From NCBI RefSeq assembly GCF_901686465.1, contig NZ_LR594487.1:2387020-2451019 (forward strand): 64,000 nucleotides of DNA, read 5' to 3'. This DNA comes from Halorubrum sp. DM2 (lineage in GTDB: Archaea; Halobacteriota; Halobacteria; Halobacteriales; Haloferacaceae). Under the pieces are notes generated by a model. The model was given only the letters and a program-made list of their open reading frames with translations. It had not been told where the DNA came from and searched no databases. Below, piece after piece: positions 25,059 to 56,411 of the stretch; the first letter of the stretch is position 1; every line of letters starts with the position of its first letter. Position numbers and translations under genes: made by a program.

Positions 25059-27461
25059 CTACCGGAGGACGGCGGCCGAGTCGACCGCGATCACGGCCCC
25101 GCCGTCGTCGCTTCCGTCCCCGCCGCGGACCGCGCCGTCACCGAACAGGTCTGCGTCGACCGAGTCGGGAACGGCGACGGTCGCCGGCTCCGCGCCGAAG
25201 TTGACGACGACGAGGAGCGCGTCGCGGTCTTCCGGGTCGGGCCCGTCGGCGTCGCCTCCCCTCGCAGGCGTCCGCTCGTAGGCGGTGACGCGCTCGGCGT
25301 CTCCCTCGACCACGCGCACGTCGGCCGCGCGACCGTCGAACGCGACCTCCCCCTCGCGGAGCAGCGGTTCGGCCTCGCGCAGCCCGACCAGTTCGCGGTG
25401 GAACTCGGTGAGGCCGTTGTCGCCGTCGTGCCACCGGATCGGACCGCGGTACGTCTCGTTGCCGCGCTCCTGTCCGGCGTAGATCATCGGCGCGCCCGGC
25501 AGCGTGAACGTCACCGCCGCGGCCGCCCGGAGGGCGTCGCGGCCGTACTCCGCGAGGTATCGGTCCTCGTCGTGGTTCTCGACGTACCGCATCTGCGAGC
25601 GGCCGCCGTCGCCGAAGCCGAGCCACTCGCCGCGGGCGAGGGCGGTCTTGACCGCGTCCGCCGGCTCCTCGCCCGCACCGACCGCGCGAAGCGTCTCGTA
25701 CAGCGAGGTGTCGTAGTGGCGGTCGAACTCTCCCTCGCCGTAGAACGGGTCGTGCGGCAGGGTCTCGTCGAGGAGCAGGACGTCCTCGGGGACGCGGTCG
25801 GCGACCTCCTTCCAGAAGCCGTGCGGGACGCCCCACGCCACGTCGGCGCGGAACCCGTCGACGACGCCGGCCCACTCGTCGACGACGTCGAGCAGCCACT
25901 CGCGGACCGCCGGGCTGTCGTAGTTGAGGTTCGGGATCCGGCCCCACTCGAAGTAGTAGTCCGGCATGTCGCCGTCGCCGAGCTGCGCCCAGTCGATCCC
26001 GGTCACGTCGAAGGCGGCGTCGGTCCGGCGGTAGTGGTCGGCGTAGGCGTCGACGCCCGCGGAGTGGAGCTGGAACGCGGGGTGATCGCGGGAGGTGTGG
26101 TTGATCACCAGATCGAATATCACCCGGATTCCGGCGTCGTGACACGTCTCGACGAGCGACTCGAACGACTCGCGGGAGCCGAGGTCGGCGGCGGTGTCGT
26201 AGTAGTCGGTGACGTGATAGCCGTGGTCCGTCGGCGAGGCGAGAACGGGCGTGAGCCAGAGCGTGTCGACGCCGAGGTGATCGAGGTACTCGACCCGGCG
26301 CTCGATCTCGCGGAACGTGGTGGGGAGCGTGTCGCCCGCGAACGACCGGACGAAGACCTCGTAGATCGTCGGCGACTCCGCCCACTCGGGCGTCGGGTTC
26401 GGATCGCTGACCGCGACGGCCTCCCCGTTCTCGGTCGCTCCCCGACCGCCCGCCTCGACCCGAACCGTCTCCGCGGCCCCGTACCGCTCGCCGTGCGGGA
26501 CCGCGTGGATCCGGACGGCGTCGTCGACGCCGTCGGCCCGGAGTTCGTCGAGCGGGACCGCAAGCGTCCGACCGTCCGCCCGCGACTCGACCGCCGCGAC
26601 CGCCTCCGGGTCGGCGTCGCGGTCGTCGACGAGGAACGTCGCGTCGAGCGCGTCCGGGTCGCCGCCGCGCTCGACCTCGTCGACCGCGGGGGCCGGTTCG
26701 ACCGCGGCGGTCAGGCGGAGCCGGGCGGTCTCGTCCGGGTCGTCGGTCCCGACGACCGTCGCGTCGAGCGAAACCCGTGGGCGACCGGGACCGGGGACCT
26801 CGCAGACGCCGTGGTGCGCCGCCGACCGGTCGTCGTCGGGGACGAAGGCGAAGCCGTGGCTCCCCGGCGGGACGCGTACCCGCGCGACCCAGTCGTCGCC
26901 GTCGCGCTCGGCCCGGTCGCGGGCGAGCCGGTTCTCGTTGAGCGGCCACAAAAGCGAGACGCGGTCGATACCGGCGTCGTCGGTTCCGTCGCCGCCGCTC
27001 TCGCCGTCGTCGGTCTCGTCGCCGCCGCTCTCACCGTCGCCGCCGGCGAGATCGGCGGCCGGAACTCGGATCTCCGTCTCGCGCCGCTCGTCGGGGAAGG
27101 CGCGCACCCGCTGGCGGTGGACGCCGTCGGGCGCGTCGAGCGCGAGCACGTAGGTGCCGGGGGCGTCGGGGACGAGGTGAACGACGGGGTCGTCGTCGCG
27201 GCTCGTCTCGCCCGCTCGAAACGCCGCGACCGAGCCGTCGGAACGGTCCGAGCGCTCCGAGCCGTTCGAGCCGTCCGCTCCGACCGTCGTCGCCGAACTC
27301 GGCGGGCCGGTCGCGTCCGGGCCGTCGCCGGCCGACAGCGCGCTGTCGCCGGGCGCGTCGCGGACGGTCCACCGGTACGTCCCGTCGGGGTCCGGGGACC
27401 GCGGCGCAAGCTCGACCGACTCGCCGACGCTCGTCGTCCGCGGGGGGCCGGGTTCGTACAC
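25059..27461 (-). CDS. GH13 alpha-amylase family glycosidase
   Basis: About 800 residues from the GTG at 27461; an ATG at 27539 would add 26 residues that look non-coding and overlap the divergent promoter. The N-terminal ~370 residues are beta-sandwich-like and very acidic, and the GH13 barrel follows: FDLVINHTSRDHP, nucleophile Asp in DGFRADVAWG (about residue 536), acid/base Glu in LLLDETLP (about 562), and transition-state Asp in VENHDED (about 630). A C-terminal beta domain closes it. No signal peptide is visible, so it is probably cytoplasmic. It is divergent from a glucoamylase, suggesting breakdown of stored or imported alpha-glucan. Confidence 0.92.
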   Translation of the reverse strand: MYEPGPPRTTSVGESVELAPRSPDPDGTYRWTVRDAPGDSALSAGDGPDATGPPSSATTVGADGSNGSERSDRSDGSVAAFRAGETSRDDDPVVHLVPDAPGTYVLALDAPDGVHRQRVRAFPDERRETEIRVPAADLAGGDGESGGDETDDGESGGDGTDDAGIDRVSLLWPLNENRLARDRAERDGDDWVARVRVPPGSHGFAFVPDDDRSAAHHGVCEVPGPGRPRVSLDATVVGTDDPDETARLRLTAAVEPAPAVDEVERGGDPDALDATFLVDDRDADPEAVAAVESRADGRTLAVPLDELRADGVDDAVRIHAVPHGERYGAAETVRVEAGGRGATENGEAVAVSDPNPTPEWAESPTIYEVFVRSFAGDTLPTTFREIERRVEYLDHLGVDTLWLTPVLASPTDHGYHVTDYYDTAADLGSRESFESLVETCHDAGIRVIFDLVINHTSRDHPAFQLHSAGVDAYADHYRRTDAAFDVTGIDWAQLGDGDMPDYYFEWGRIPNLNYDSPAVREWLLDVVDEWAGVVDGFRADVAWGVPHGFWKEVADRVPEDVLLLDETLPHDPFYGEGEFDRHYDTSLYETLRAVGAGEEPADAVKTALARGEWLGFGDGGRSQMRYVENHDEDRYLAEYGRDALRAAAAVTFTLPGAPMIYAGQERGNETYRGPIRWHDGDNGLTEFHRELVGLREAEPLLREGEVAFDGRAADVRVVEGDAERVTAYERTPARGGDADGPDPEDRDALLVVVNFGAEPATVAVPDSVDADLFGDGAVRGGDGSDDGGAVIAVDSAAVLR

Positions 27462-27565
27462 GCCCGGTCTCTCGTCTCGCCGGGGCTTGAGGGTTTCCGT
27501 TTTCGAAACTCGTGAACAAGAATTACACCAAAACTTCATACCGGGCGACCGCGTGTGTTCGCGTA

Positions 27566-29707
27566 ATGCAGCTTCGCGACGCGCTCGACGACTACAAGCG
27601 CCACGCCGGCGACGGGACGCGCTTCCCCGGCGAGCGGCGCACCGTCTCCGGCCGGTTTTCGGGCGGCGACGGGCGGCTCGTCCACGTCGGCGGCGACGGC
27701 GAACTCCGCGACTTCGGCTATCCGCTCACGGGCCAGACGGGTCTCGTCCGGTCGCGGATCGGTCTCGCCGTCGACGGCGAGGTGACGTGGCTCGACGAGG
27801 CCGACACGACCCAGCGGTACGTCGGCGACACCGCGCTGGTCGAGACGGTCCACGAGACGCCGTGGGCGACGGTGACTCGCCACGACCTCACGCTCGGCGA
27901 CGCGCACCTCACGCGCGCGACGCTCGACGTCGGCGAGGACGGCCACGCGAACGTCGACCCCGACGCCCTCTCGCTCGTCGTCTACGTCCGGTTCGCCCCC
28001 GACGGCCGCGACGACCGGGTGGGACAGCTCCGGTACGACGACGCCGTCGAGGTGTACCACGCCGACGAGCACGACTTCCTCGCGAGCGCGACCGGCTTCG
28101 CCGACCTCCGCGGCCAGCTCCCGGCCACCTTCCCCGAACTGCTCGACGAGGACCCGACCGACCTCCCCCGCGACCGCGACGGCGACCGCTACGAGGAGGA
28201 GCGCCTCTCCGGCGAGGTGATCGCCGACGTGCCCTTCGAAGACGGGGTCGCGACGGTCGCCACGCTCCTGACGGACCGGAGCGAGACCGACCGCGAGACG
28301 GCCCGCGAGCGCCTCGACGCGCTCTTCGCCGACCTCGATAGCGTCGACGCGCTCGCCGACGCGGCCGCCGACGCGCTCCCGTCGGTCCCGGAGTCGGCCC
28401 CCGCCCGCGAGTCCGTGGTCGCCGACCTGCGCGTCCTCTCGCTTCTGTCCGCGCCGTCCGGGCTCCGGATCGCGGGCCCGGACTTCGACCCGTACTACGA
28501 GCACTCCGGCGGCTACGGCTACACGTGGTTCCGCGACGACGCGGAGATATCCGGGTTCCTGCTCGGCGCGGCCGACGCGGTCGGCGTCGACCTCGACGAC
28601 CGGCACGCCCGCTCCGCGCGGATGTACGTCGCCACGCAGCGCCCGGACGGCTCGTGGCCCCACCGGGTGTGGCCCCGCGACGGCGCGCTCGCGCCCGGGT
28701 GGGCGAACGCCCGCATCGAGGACGGGCCGGACGTCGACTACCAGGCCGACCAGACGGGCAGCGTCGTCGCGTACCTCGCGCGGGCCCGCGACGCGGGCAC
28801 CGACGTCGACGGGCTCGACCAGACGCTGGTCGCCGCACTCGCGGGTCTCGACCGGACGCTCGAACCCGACGGCCGGCCGGTGGTCTGTCAGAACGCGTGG
28901 GAGGACTCCGCCGGTCGGTTCACCCACACCGCCGCGACGTTCCTCGAGGCGTACAGCGAACTCGGCCGCCACGGGGAGGGGCTGACCGTCGACGCGCTCG
29001 ACGACCCCGACGCCGTGCCCGGTGCCGCGTCGCTGCCGGACGACCTCGCCGCGCACGCCCGCGACCGGGCCCGCGAGGTGTACGAGGCGCTCGACGACCT
29101 GTGGGTGCCCGAGCGCGGCTGTTACGCGCTCCGCGAGACGGTCGACGGCGGGATCGACGACCGCCTCGACTCCGCGACGCTGGGGCTCGCGGCCGCGCAC
29201 CGCTCGTTCGACGCGCTCGGACGGGCGGGCGACGGGGGCGACGGCGAGGACGCGACCGGCGCGGTCGACGCGGAGCGTCTCGACCGCCTCGTCTCGCACG
29301 TCGAGACGGTCGTCGACGGGCTCTACCACGAGACCGACGCGATCACCGGGCTGACCCGTTACGAGGGCGACGGCTGGCGGCGCGCGGGCCAAGCGTCAGA
29401 GAAGGTGTGGACCGTCTCGACCGCGTGGGGTGCGAACGCCTGCGCGGAGCTCGCCGCGCTGCTCGCGGCGCACGACGACCCCCGCGCCGCCGATCTGGTC
29501 GAGCGCGCCCGCGACCTGCTCGCGCACGTCTCGCCCGGGGGCAGCCTCTGCGAGCCGACGACGTACCTCCCCGAGCAGTTCTTCGACGACGGAACGCCCG
29601 ACAGCGCGACGCCGCTCGGCTGGCCGCACGCGATCCGGCTGGCGACCGTCGCGCTGCTCGACGACGAACTCCCGCAGTTCGCCGACCGCGCCGCCGCGGA
29701 CGACTGA
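27566..29707 (+). CDS. GH15 glucoamylase (glucan 1,4-alpha-glucosidase)
   Basis: A 713-residue enzyme, N-terminal super-beta-sandwich (about 1-260) and C-terminal (alpha/alpha)6 barrel (about 285-700). GH15 landmarks: GYGYTWFRDDAEISG (about 318-330), RPDGSWPHRVW, and the catalytic-base motif TYLPEQFFDDG near the C-terminus. It releases glucose from the non-reducing ends of alpha-glucans. No signal peptide is visible. The ATG at 27566 was chosen because MQLRDALDDYKRHAGDG is typical of the family start; it is 104 nt from the divergent amylase GTG. Confidence 0.93.
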   Translation: MQLRDALDDYKRHAGDGTRFPGERRTVSGRFSGGDGRLVHVGGDGELRDFGYPLTGQTGLVRSRIGLAVDGEVTWLDEADTTQRYVGDTALVETVHETPWATVTRHDLTLGDAHLTRATLDVGEDGHANVDPDALSLVVYVRFAPDGRDDRVGQLRYDDAVEVYHADEHDFLASATGFADLRGQLPATFPELLDEDPTDLPRDRDGDRYEEERLSGEVIADVPFEDGVATVATLLTDRSETDRETARERLDALFADLDSVDALADAAADALPSVPESAPARESVVADLRVLSLLSAPSGLRIAGPDFDPYYEHSGGYGYTWFRDDAEISGFLLGAADAVGVDLDDRHARSARMYVATQRPDGSWPHRVWPRDGALAPGWANARIEDGPDVDYQADQTGSVVAYLARARDAGTDVDGLDQTLVAALAGLDRTLEPDGRPVVCQNAWEDSAGRFTHTAATFLEAYSELGRHGEGLTVDALDDPDAVPGAASLPDDLAAHARDRAREVYEALDDLWVPERGCYALRETVDGGIDDRLDSATLGLAAAHRSFDALGRAGDGGDGEDATGAVDAERLDRLVSHVETVVDGLYHETDAITGLTRYEGDGWRRAGQASEKVWTVSTAWGANACAELAALLAAHDDPRAADLVERARDLLAHVSPGGSLCEPTTYLPEQFFDDGTPDSATPLGWPHAIRLATVALLDDELPQFADRAAADD

Positions 29708-52380: not shown

Positions 52381-52947
52381 ATGGCACTACTCCAGAAGCT
52401 CAAAGAGAAGCTCGGATTCGGGAGCGGCTCCGCCGAACGCGAGTCGGCCGAGACCGAAGTGACCGTCGAGCGCGAGTCGGAACCGGCCGCCGATGCGGCC
52501 GTCTCCGAGGGTGACGACGGCGCGGACGACGCGGAGACCGACGACGCCGAAAGTGACGACGCGGAGCCGGTCGCCGCCGGGACGGAGGCCGCCGCCTCGA
52601 CCGAGTCGCTCGTCGACGAGGAGGCCGCGACCGACGACGAGGCCACCGCAACCGACGATGAGGCCGCCGCAACCGACGACGAGGCCGCCACGACCGACGA
52701 CGGGGCCGCCGAGCCGGCGGAGGCCGCGACGGGCGAGAGCGACGACGTCGCGGTCGACGACGACGACCGCGGCGCGAGCGTCGAGGAGATCAAGGGTATC
52801 GGCCCGGCGTACGCCGAGCGGCTCGCGGAGATCGACATCGAGACCGTCGACCAGCTCGCGGCCGCCGACGCCGCCAACATCGCGGAGGGCGCGAGCATCA
52901 GCGAGAAGCGCGCGGCGCGGTGGATCGACCGCGCGAACGAGTTCTGA
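52381..52947 (+). CDS. Helix-hairpin-helix protein with acidic repeat linker
   Basis: A 188-residue protein. A short N-terminal amphipathic piece MALLQKLKEKLGFGSGS is followed by ~110 residues of Glu/Asp/Ala low complexity with repeats of ATDDEA (about residues 80-110), then a C-terminal helix-hairpin-helix region IKGIGPAYAERLAEIDIET (about 137-188) of the DNA-binding or 5'-3' exonuclease-fold type. Common in haloarchaea; role unknown. Confidence 0.82.
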   Translation: MALLQKLKEKLGFGSGSAERESAETEVTVERESEPAADAAVSEGDDGADDAETDDAESDDAEPVAAGTEAAASTESLVDEEAATDDEATATDDEAAATDDEAATTDDGAAEPAEAATGESDDVAVDDDDRGASVEEIKGIGPAYAERLAEIDIETVDQLAAADAANIAEGASISEKRAARWIDRANEF

Positions 52948-53003: not shown

Positions 53004-54787
53004 ATGAGTCGAACGGTACACACCGACCGGGACCGCTTCCGCGCGGTCGCCGCCGCGGCGCGGGCCGGCGCGCGGGTCCCGGTCGAGCGCCGGGTCGCCG
53101 TCGACGATCCCTTCGCGGCGTACCGCCGGGCGCGGGACGGTCCCGGCGGCGTCTTCTACGAGACCACCGGCGGCCAGTCCGGCTGGGGGTACTTCGGCGT
53201 CGACCCGGTCGAGCGGCTGACCGTCTCCGGCGAGGCGACGGTCGTCGAGTCCGGGGGCTCGGCGGGGCCGGAGCGTCCCGGCGACTACCGCCGCCCGTCG
53301 CCGTCGCTTTCCGCGCTGGAGGGCGTCCTCGACGGCGAGACGCTGGCGCGCGGCGACTGCGAGGTCCCGTACCCCTGCGGCGCGTTCGGCTGGCTCTCCT
53401 ACGACGCCGCCCGCGAGCTGGAGGACTTCCCCGCCGCCGCGCCCGAGGGGGCGGGCGCGGTCGACGACCGGGGCCTCCCGCGGCTTCAGGCGGCGCTCTT
53501 CGACCGAGTCGCGGCGTGGGAGTGCCCGACCGACGACGACGAGACCGTCCTGCGCGTGACCGCCTGCCTCCGCGTTCCCAAGGGGCTCGACGACCCGGAC
53601 GCCAACCGCGATGCCCTCGACGCGCTGTTCGACGAGGCGGCGGAGCGGGCGGGAGACCTGATAGCCCGGATCGAGCGCGGCGACCCGGACGCGGAGGACC
53701 CGCCCGACTCGACCGCCGAGCGCGCGACCTTCGAGAGCGACGTGGGGCGGGAGGGGTACGCCGACGCGGTGCGGCGCGTCAAGGAATACGTTCGGGAGGG
53801 CGACACGTTTCAGGCGAACGTCTCTCAGCGACTGACCGCCCCCGCGGCAGTCCACCCGGTCGACGCGTACGACGCGCTCCGAGCGGTGAAACCGCGCCCT
53901 ACCCCGGGCTGATCGAGTTCGGTATACGGGGGGGGGCGGTGGGACCGGAACGACGGGCCGGGAGGACGGGGCCGGGACGATAGGCCGAGTGCGAGAGACC
54001 GAGACGCTGAAACCGTCACCCGACCGGCGTCGACCTCGTGAGCGCGAGCCCCGAACTCCTTCTGGCGCGGGAGCCGACCGACGACCCAGACCGCGGCGCG
54101 CGCCTCGTCACGGAACCCATCGCCGGGACGCGCCCGCGGGGGGACGGCGACGAGGCCGACGCGGCGCTCGAAGCGGAACTGATCGGGGACGCGAAGGAGC
54201 GCGCGGAACACGCGATGTTGGTCGACCTCGAACGCAACGACCTCGGCAAGGTGTCGCGGTTCGGCACGGTCGACGTCGCGGAGTACCGCCGCGTCGACCG
54301 CTACAGCGAGGTGATGCACCTCGTGAGCCTGATCGAGGGGGAGGCCCGGCCGGACGTGGGACTGGCGGACGCGGTCGCGGCCTGCTTCCCCGGCGGGACG
54401 ATCACGGGCGCGCCGAAGCCGCGGACGATGGAGATAATCGACGAACTGGAGCCGACGCGCCGCGGTCCCTACACCGGGTCGATGTTCGCGGCCGGGTTCG
54501 ACGGGCGCGCGACGCTCTCTATCGTCATCCGCACGCTCGTCCGCCACGCCGCCGAGTACCACCTCCGCGTCGGGGCGGGGATCGTCCACGACTCCGACCC
54601 CGACGCCGAGTACGAGGAGACGCTCGCGAAGGCGCGCGCGCTGGTGAGCGCGGTCGACGAGGCGCTCGCGGCCGGCGGGATGGCGGTCGACGAGACGGTC
54701 GGAGAAGCGGACGAGGCGACCGGGGAGGCGGACGAGGCGGCCGGGGAGGCGGCCGACGGGACGGCCGAGGAGGCGGTCGAGCGATGA
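53004..54787 (+). pseudogene. pabB: Disrupted chorismate-amination component I (pabB/trpE-like)
   Basis: Reads as a component I gene from MSRTVHTDRDRFRAVAAAAR (53004). Recognisable parts: FQANVSQRL near 53810-53830, then, beyond the lesion, [38 protein letters not shown] and [18 protein letters not shown] one-base loss near 53893-53900 shifts the frame (PRPTPG then stop at 53912), and 53921-54025 holds ~105 nt of extra sequence with TAG (53981) and TGA stops before the normal frame resumes. Reading through both lesions would be required for a functional protein. Downstream pabA overlaps its stop by 4 nt. Confidence 0.85.
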
Positions 54788-55419
54788 CGGACGCCGACGC
54801 CGCCGAGGCGACGGCGGGCTGGCGACTGGGCGCGGGCGAGACCGACGCGCGCGTTCTCGTCGTCGACAACTACGACTCGTTCGCGTACAACCTCGTCCAG
54901 TACGTCGGCGAAGTCGCGGGCGCGGTGACGGTCCGGCGCAACGACGCGGTCGACCTCGCGGGGATCCGCGCGCTCGACCCCGACGGCGTCGTCGTCTCCC
55001 CCGGACCCGGAACCCCGGCTGACGCCGGCGTTTCGACCGCCGTCTTCGAACTCGACCGCCCCGTGTTTGGCGTCTGTCTCGGCCATCAGGCGCTCTGTGC
55101 GAGCCGCGGGAGCCGGGTGGGCCACGCGCCCGATGTCGTCCACGGGAAGCCGTCGACGATCACCCACGACGGTGAGGGCGTCTTCGCCGGGCTCCCCGAC
55201 CGGCTCCGCGTCGGGCGATACCACTCGCTGTGCGTCGAGCGCGAGGACCTGCCCGACGAGCTGGTCGAGACCGCCCGCACCGAGGACGAACGCGAGGTCG
55301 TGATGGGCGTGCGCCACCGAGAGAAGCCCCACGTCGGCGTCCAGTTCCATCCGGAGAGTATCCTCACCCCGCGCGGGAAGCAGATGGTACGGAACTTCGT
55401 GGCGGGGTGCGAGCGATGA
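54784..55419 (+). CDS. pabA: Glutamine amidotransferase component II (pabA/trpG-like)
   Basis: A 211-residue class I glutamine amidotransferase that supplies ammonia for chorismate amination. A ~25-residue acidic start is followed by [27 protein letters not shown], the nucleophile Cys in [10 protein letters not shown], and the His-Glu pair in [11 protein letters not shown]. Overlaps by 4 nt with both component I and the aminotransferase gene. pABA versus anthranilate cannot be decided from this gene alone; the downstream class IV aminotransferase favours pABA. Confidence 0.9.
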
Positions 55420-56411
55420 GCGACGCGACCGGGGAGGGTGACGGGCGCGAGGGAGACGACGGGCACGGGGGGGACGGCGAGCGCGAGGGAGACGGCGGAC
55501 ACGAGGAGGACGCCGACTCCCTGTACTACGTCGACGGCGACCTCGTCCCCGCGAGCGAGGCGACCGTCTCCGTCGAGGACCGCGGGTTCGCCTACGGCGA
55601 CGCCGCCTTCGAGACGATGCGCGCGTACGGCGGCGACCTCTTCCGGTGGGAGGCGCACGCCGACCGGCTCCGTGACACCTGCGAGACGCTCGGGCTGGAT
55701 CACGGGATCGCCCACGCGGACCTGAAACGACGGGTCGACGAGACGCTGGCCGCGAACGAGTTCGCGGACGCGTACGTGAAGCTCTCCATCACGCGGGGCG
55801 TTCAGCCGGGAACGCTCGATCCGGCCCCCGAGGTCGACCCGACCGTCGTCGTGATCGCGAAGCCGCTCCCGCGGGGCGGCGTCGGGAGCGAGCCGGTCCA
55901 CGACGGCCCGGCCGCGATCCAGACGACGAAGACGCGCAAGGCCGCCGACCGCGCGATCCCCGCCGCCGCGAAGACGCACAACTACCTCAACGGAATCCTC
56001 GCCCGGCTCGAACTCCGCGTGACCGGCGCGGACGAGGCCCTGATGCTCGACCCGGACGGGCACGTCGCCGAGGGGGCGACCTCGAACCTCTTTTTCGCCG
56101 ACGGGAACGCCCTGCGGACCCCTTCGCTCGACGGCCCGATCCTGCCTGGCGTCACCAGGGCGACCGTGATCGAGATCGCGAAAGCCGAGGGGATCCCGGT
56201 CGAGGAGGGGACGTACGCGCCGGACGCGGTCCGTTCGGCCGACGAGGTCTTCCTCACGAACTCGACGTGGGAGGTCCGCCCCGTCGCGACCGTCGACGGC
56301 ATCGCGGTCGACGGCGACGGCGAGGGGGTCGCCGGCCCGCTCACGACCCTCATCTCTCGGCTGTTCGACCGCCGGATCGAGGAGAACCACTACGACGGCG
56401 AGCGACTGTGA
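55416..56411 (+). CDS. pabC: Class IV aminotransferase, aminodeoxychorismate lyase-like
   Basis: A 331-residue PLP fold-type IV enzyme. A disordered Gly/Asp/Glu-rich head (about 1-34) precedes LYYVDGDLVPASEA, VEDRGFAYGDAAFETMRAYGG, the PLP Lys in AAKTHNYLNGILA, EGATSNLFFAD and LPGVTRATVIEIA. Haloarchaeal genes of this type next to component I/II are assigned to pABA synthesis, though branched-chain aminotransferase-like activity is possible. Start overlaps pabA stop (ATGA at 55416). Confidence 0.88.
   Translation: MSDATGEGDGREGDDGHGGDGEREGDGGHEEDADSLYYVDGDLVPASEATVSVEDRGFAYGDAAFETMRAYGGDLFRWEAHADRLRDTCETLGLDHGIAHADLKRRVDETLAANEFADAYVKLSITRGVQPGTLDPAPEVDPTVVVIAKPLPRGGVGSEPVHDGPAAIQTTKTRKAADRAIPAAAKTHNYLNGILARLELRVTGADEALMLDPDGHVAEGATSNLFFADGNALRTPSLDGPILPGVTRATVIEIAKAEGIPVEEGTYAPDAVRSADEVFLTNSTWEVRPVATVDGIAVDGDGEGVAGPLTTLISRLFDRRIEENHYDGERL

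Follow-up and report, generated by a model that had tools for sequence, protein, structure and literature searches.

The closest described systems are the pab genes of other haloarchaea and the solved component I enzymes. In Haloferax volcanii, pabA, pabB and pabC (HVO_0709, HVO_0710 and HVO_0708) are proposed to lead from chorismate to p-aminobenzoate, and haloarchaeal pab genes are treated as candidates without experimental confirmation (PMC8305020); for Natrialba magadii, too, an operon of pabABC has been reported (PMC3403918). Judged by gene description, the same three genes occur in the stretch of DNA studied here, a 64 kb window of contig NZ_LR594487.1 from Halorubrum sp. DM2, whose closed genome is a single contig of 3,454,955 bases. 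Two features mark the window's pabB: it is out of frame, and it carries a genus-specific linker that is missing from the seven haloarchaeal loci of other genera that we read. The linker has no counterpart in two component I enzymes of solved structure, 7pi1 (aminodeoxychorismate synthase component 1) and 7qu9; an intact PabB from a relative (genome G039) can be aligned with 7pi1 along almost its entire length (E 2.6e-73), the PIAGT motif included. The literature available to us, which includes parts of PMC8305020, PMC4162585 and PMC3403918, contains no report of pabB loss in this genus that we could find.

The locus consists of four genes on the + strand: an HHH-domain gene (52381-52947, identified by its domain match), pabB (53004-54787), pabA (54784-55419) and pabC (55416-56411). 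The last two are assigned from domain and family matches as glutamine amidotransferase component II and a pabC-like class IV aminotransferase. Both are open, and they overlap as ATGA, just as the initial annotation had it when it called pabA and pabC intact and normally overlapping. The pabB gene lies in an operon with pabA and pabC, apart from the trpE-trpG pair of the same genome (C1:2930500-2931983), which is the context expected of PabB rather than TrpE. The PIAGT motif, present in all 30 same-genus PabB proteins (the window's among them), does not decide between aminodeoxychorismate and anthranilate as the product, since it is also found in 7pi1.

Inspection of pabB reveals that its two parts are written in two different frames. 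The 5' part (53004-53912) runs in a single frame from its start until it closes at the TGA at 53910-53912, with matches to PF04715 (28.4 bits) and to the start of the chorismate-binding domain PF00425 (27.4 bits, against a cut-off of 27). The 3' part (54026-54787, to its TGA) carries the larger piece of PF00425 (224 bits) and a match to TIGR01824 (292 bits), both for 54038-54784, and shares its frame with a PYPGLIEF block at 53897-53920. The switch takes place inside 53886-53920, the equivalent of V-NPAPYSGLIEF in the relatives; because the 5' part on one side and the PYPGLIEF block and 3' part on the other are in different frames, one net base is missing within 53886-53899. This agrees with the frameshift, and with the missing base near 53893-53900, that were first noticed in this gene. 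Overlooked at that time were two base differences in the same place. In the 33-base block before the linker, where the residues N, P, A, P, S, G and E are identical in all 39 relatives that can be read, the window has two substitutions at bases for which every one of the 39 has another letter, and a third difference that it has in common with 3 of them. Further on, the second frame is blocked by a TAG at 53981-53983 and a TGA at 54008-54010.

The comparison with relatives draws on 51 other genomes of the genus, in which the pabB junction could be read in 39 loci (29 + 10). In all 39 the gene is one continuous frame, with an in-frame linker of 5-33 codons between its two halves. The window's pabB has no such continuous frame, and it is thus disrupted with respect to its intact orthologues in the way that a pseudogene would be.

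We lean towards a recent and real inactivation of pabB, a gene that would be dispensable in this genus. In the mechanism that we propose, the pabB of a haloarchaeal pabB-pabA-pabC operon was recently thrown out of frame, inside and just before a hypervariable linker resembling a surface loop. Translation from the pabB start would then stop at 53910, with the greater part of the chorismate-binding domain still to come, and this early stop would leave the cell with no working component I. The lesion would persist because PabAB is dispensable in the genus, presumably through uptake of pABA or folate. We infer, in short, that the sequence is right, the enzyme is dead and pABA comes from elsewhere. 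As for another component I gene acting as a substitute, a search of the genome itself with PF00425 returns TrpE, one further homologue that we infer to be of the isochorismate-synthase type, and the two pieces of the broken pabB, with no second pabB among them. Of these proteins, only TrpE might stand in for PabB. Replacement by a second copy is possible in principle; two relatives, G039 (L137:9210-11329) and G032 (C50:14367-21051), each carry an additional, diverged pair of pabB and pabA-like genes close to another folP-type gene, perhaps gained by transfer, and the window's genome is without such a copy.

Now we consider the fate of the same genes across the genus. Of the 51 relatives, 39 have an intact pabB, 8 have neither pabA nor pabB, 2 retain remnants and 2 are uninformative (a contig end cuts pabB in G031, and the pabC match of G041 starts at base 1 of its contig). 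In the 8 genomes without the pair (G001, G005, G007, G012, G013, G023, G030 and G034), searches for pabA and pabB hit nothing beyond TrpG, TrpE or the additional PF00425 protein. The HHH gene directly adjoins pabC in all six of the loci that we fetched (G005 and G013 fell outside this sample). In G028 (L129:5604-5867), an internal deletion has left the opening residues of pabB running in frame into the end of pabA; the join sits on GTCGAGCGC, which in the window's operon occurs as a 9-bp direct repeat, at 53082 and again at 55234. In G033 (L139:1866-2485, minus strand), the start of pabB runs in frame into pabA, which has lost, by another in-frame deletion, the stretch that in the window holds GVCLGHQ. 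As is likely for the window, these two genomes have lost component I in this operon and kept pabC; they differ from it in that theirs are in-frame deletions with much of pabA gone, whereas the window has a disrupted frame and an intact pabA.

A tree of TrpE from 50 genomes, with G020 and G041 left out as partial, requires at least four switches between an intact and a non-intact state along its well-supported branches, and the deletions in relatives are independent. The tree groups the window's genome with G015, G046 and G033 (97/97), with the order inside this group not resolved, and the window's lesion and the loss in G033 might share an origin. Because the same pair is completely gone from several relatives, the window most likely presents a case of ordinary recent gene loss. 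Of the explanations originally offered, which included a recent loss of pABA synthesis, a recent loss of pabB function accounts best for what we see, and it agrees with pabAB having been lost repeatedly. If the lesion is real, it captures a cofactor pathway of haloarchaea at the first step of its loss. The genus as a whole provides a natural series (intact, frameshifted, deleted, absent) for testing PabAB as the supplier of pABA, and the same series is useful for asking what PabC does where PabAB is gone.

The main question for this reading is whether the break exists in the cell or only in the assembly. A local sequencing or assembly error, in which a G-rich patch with poor coverage was miscalled and the true gene is intact, its long linker being in frame, is quite possible, though we stop short of calling it probable. 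Every anomaly is confined to about 140 bp, with no visible decay beyond it, and this patch contains a run of nine Gs (53928-53936) at which a miscall would be expected; nowhere else in the 64 kb is there a G or C run of at least 8, and 72 kb from each of two relatives has none. Both halves of pabB also look selected, with dN/dS like that of intact relatives and few private changes: the N part has 4, including one at the break, and the C part has 1, where the relatives range over 0-7 and 0-4. Finally, when one frame change is allowed (at a penalty of 4), the linker keeps some coding likeness, as good a score being reached by 6 of 500 shuffles. The selection result can be read both ways. Relaxed selection over the gene, as expected of a pseudogene, is not seen in the window's pabB, and it would not be expected to be seen if inactivation were very recent; halves that look intact thus indicate either a young lesion or an artefact, and within our preferred reading their low dN/dS speaks for a young lesion.

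Against an error stand the substitutions that accompany the change of length in the block before the linker, the fact that the genus loses pabB anyway, and the condition of the surrounding genes. We compared about 40 kb of synteny with G039 and G015, picking ORFs by a codon-position GC filter (42 from G039 and 50 from G015, with 15 and 18 of these having no match in the window) and scoring those that matched at 65% identity or more for a match in a single frame. Single-frame matches were obtained for 26 of 27 syntenic ORFs from G039 and for 30 of 32 from G015, and no gene other than pabB shows a break against the two of them. The other multi-frame match from G015 (window 27181-29680) is apparently leader sequence upstream of a likely start, judging from the translations. 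General assembly noise is disfavoured, since pabB alone is broken against both relatives. Taken together, what we see is probably an ordinary gene inactivation, likely a recent one, to which a local sequencing error is a serious rival.

It is also conceivable that pabB works despite the break, either because slippage of the ribosome or during transcription (at the G9 run, for instance) recodes it or because its two halves are translated separately. We consider this very unlikely. Purifying selection on both halves would suit either version, and a candidate GTG start at 54038 opens the 3' part; the gene is, however, one continuous frame in every readable relative, and the break splits the chorismate-binding domain. 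The geometry of the frames rules out a single programmed shift at G9: the first frame change is upstream of both the TGA at 53910 and G9, so that slippage at G9 alone cannot join the halves.

The stretch from 53921 to 54025 deserves separate attention. The initial annotation took it as extra sequence with a TAG and a TGA in the resumed frame. The two stop codons are present as described; the sequence, however, is not extra, since all 39 intact relatives have a linker at the same spot, and no separate 105-nt insertion is needed to account for it. On the evidence of sequence comparison, we identify this stretch as the hypervariable linker of the lineage, here long and out of frame, and not as a mobile element. 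At 105 nt, or 35 codons' worth, it is the longest that we have seen, just above the range in the relatives. Linkers of the genus are rich in Gly, Asp, Ser, Glu and Ala (29 linkers counted). Scored for likeness to the relatives' linkers, the window's is unlike them in all three frames (log-odds of -26.2, -5.5 and -11.4), while the same score is positive in 16 of the 17 relatives having at least 17 linker codons. In alignments to 7pi1 and 7qu9 the linker coincides with an 11-residue gap that has a conserved segment on either side, and for this reason it is probably a surface loop. It is missing from all seven haloarchaeal pabB loci of other genera that we could use (7 of the 80 loci from a contig scan that yielded few haloarchaea), where EF leads almost directly into the next conserved segment. 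That a mobile element or some other recent 105-nt insertion broke pabB is scarcely credible: the segment has no close DNA counterpart in relatives, as an insertion might not, yet its own genome holds no second copy, the 51 other genomes give just short, weak matches in 4, and the position is that of the linker in intact genes. A hypervariable linker specific to one genus is an interesting by-product of this analysis.

A second by-product is the repeated loss of pabAB with pabC kept. All 10 genomes without a working pabAB (the 8 above together with G028 and G033) keep a pabC orthologue, at 62-90% identity, and all 10 have a strong Pterin_bind match, that is, a FolP-type gene; some Pterin_bind match is found in each of the 52 genomes. 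The retention of pabC where pabAB is gone suggests that the PabC product also does something else, and pABA in these genomes may come from another source. Three in-frame deletions lead up to pabC, one in G028 and two in G033, which hint at selection for translating pabC, three events being few. We tentatively entertain a broader version of this picture, possible but doubtful, in which the genus repeatedly sheds PabA and PabB while keeping pabC and a dihydropteroate-synthase-type gene, with remnant fusions staying in frame as far as pabC; the main function of PabC would not be that of an aminodeoxychorismate lyase, pABA would be imported or made by an unknown route, and the window's genome would stand at the first step of this process. 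Separately, in G022 a weaker Pterin_bind gene (C1:1597626-1598323) is matched in two pieces, one with an internal TAG, and is perhaps another decaying folate-related gene or else a sequence error.

Length variation in this operon is not restricted to the linker. The HHH protein contains a low-complexity, in-phase repeat with a 21-nt unit (window 52614-52711), and the start of pabC contains low-complexity, in-phase repeats with 36- and 18-nt units (window 55405-55512), from which it follows that pabB is not the only gene of this operon with variable stretches of a flexible, acidic kind.
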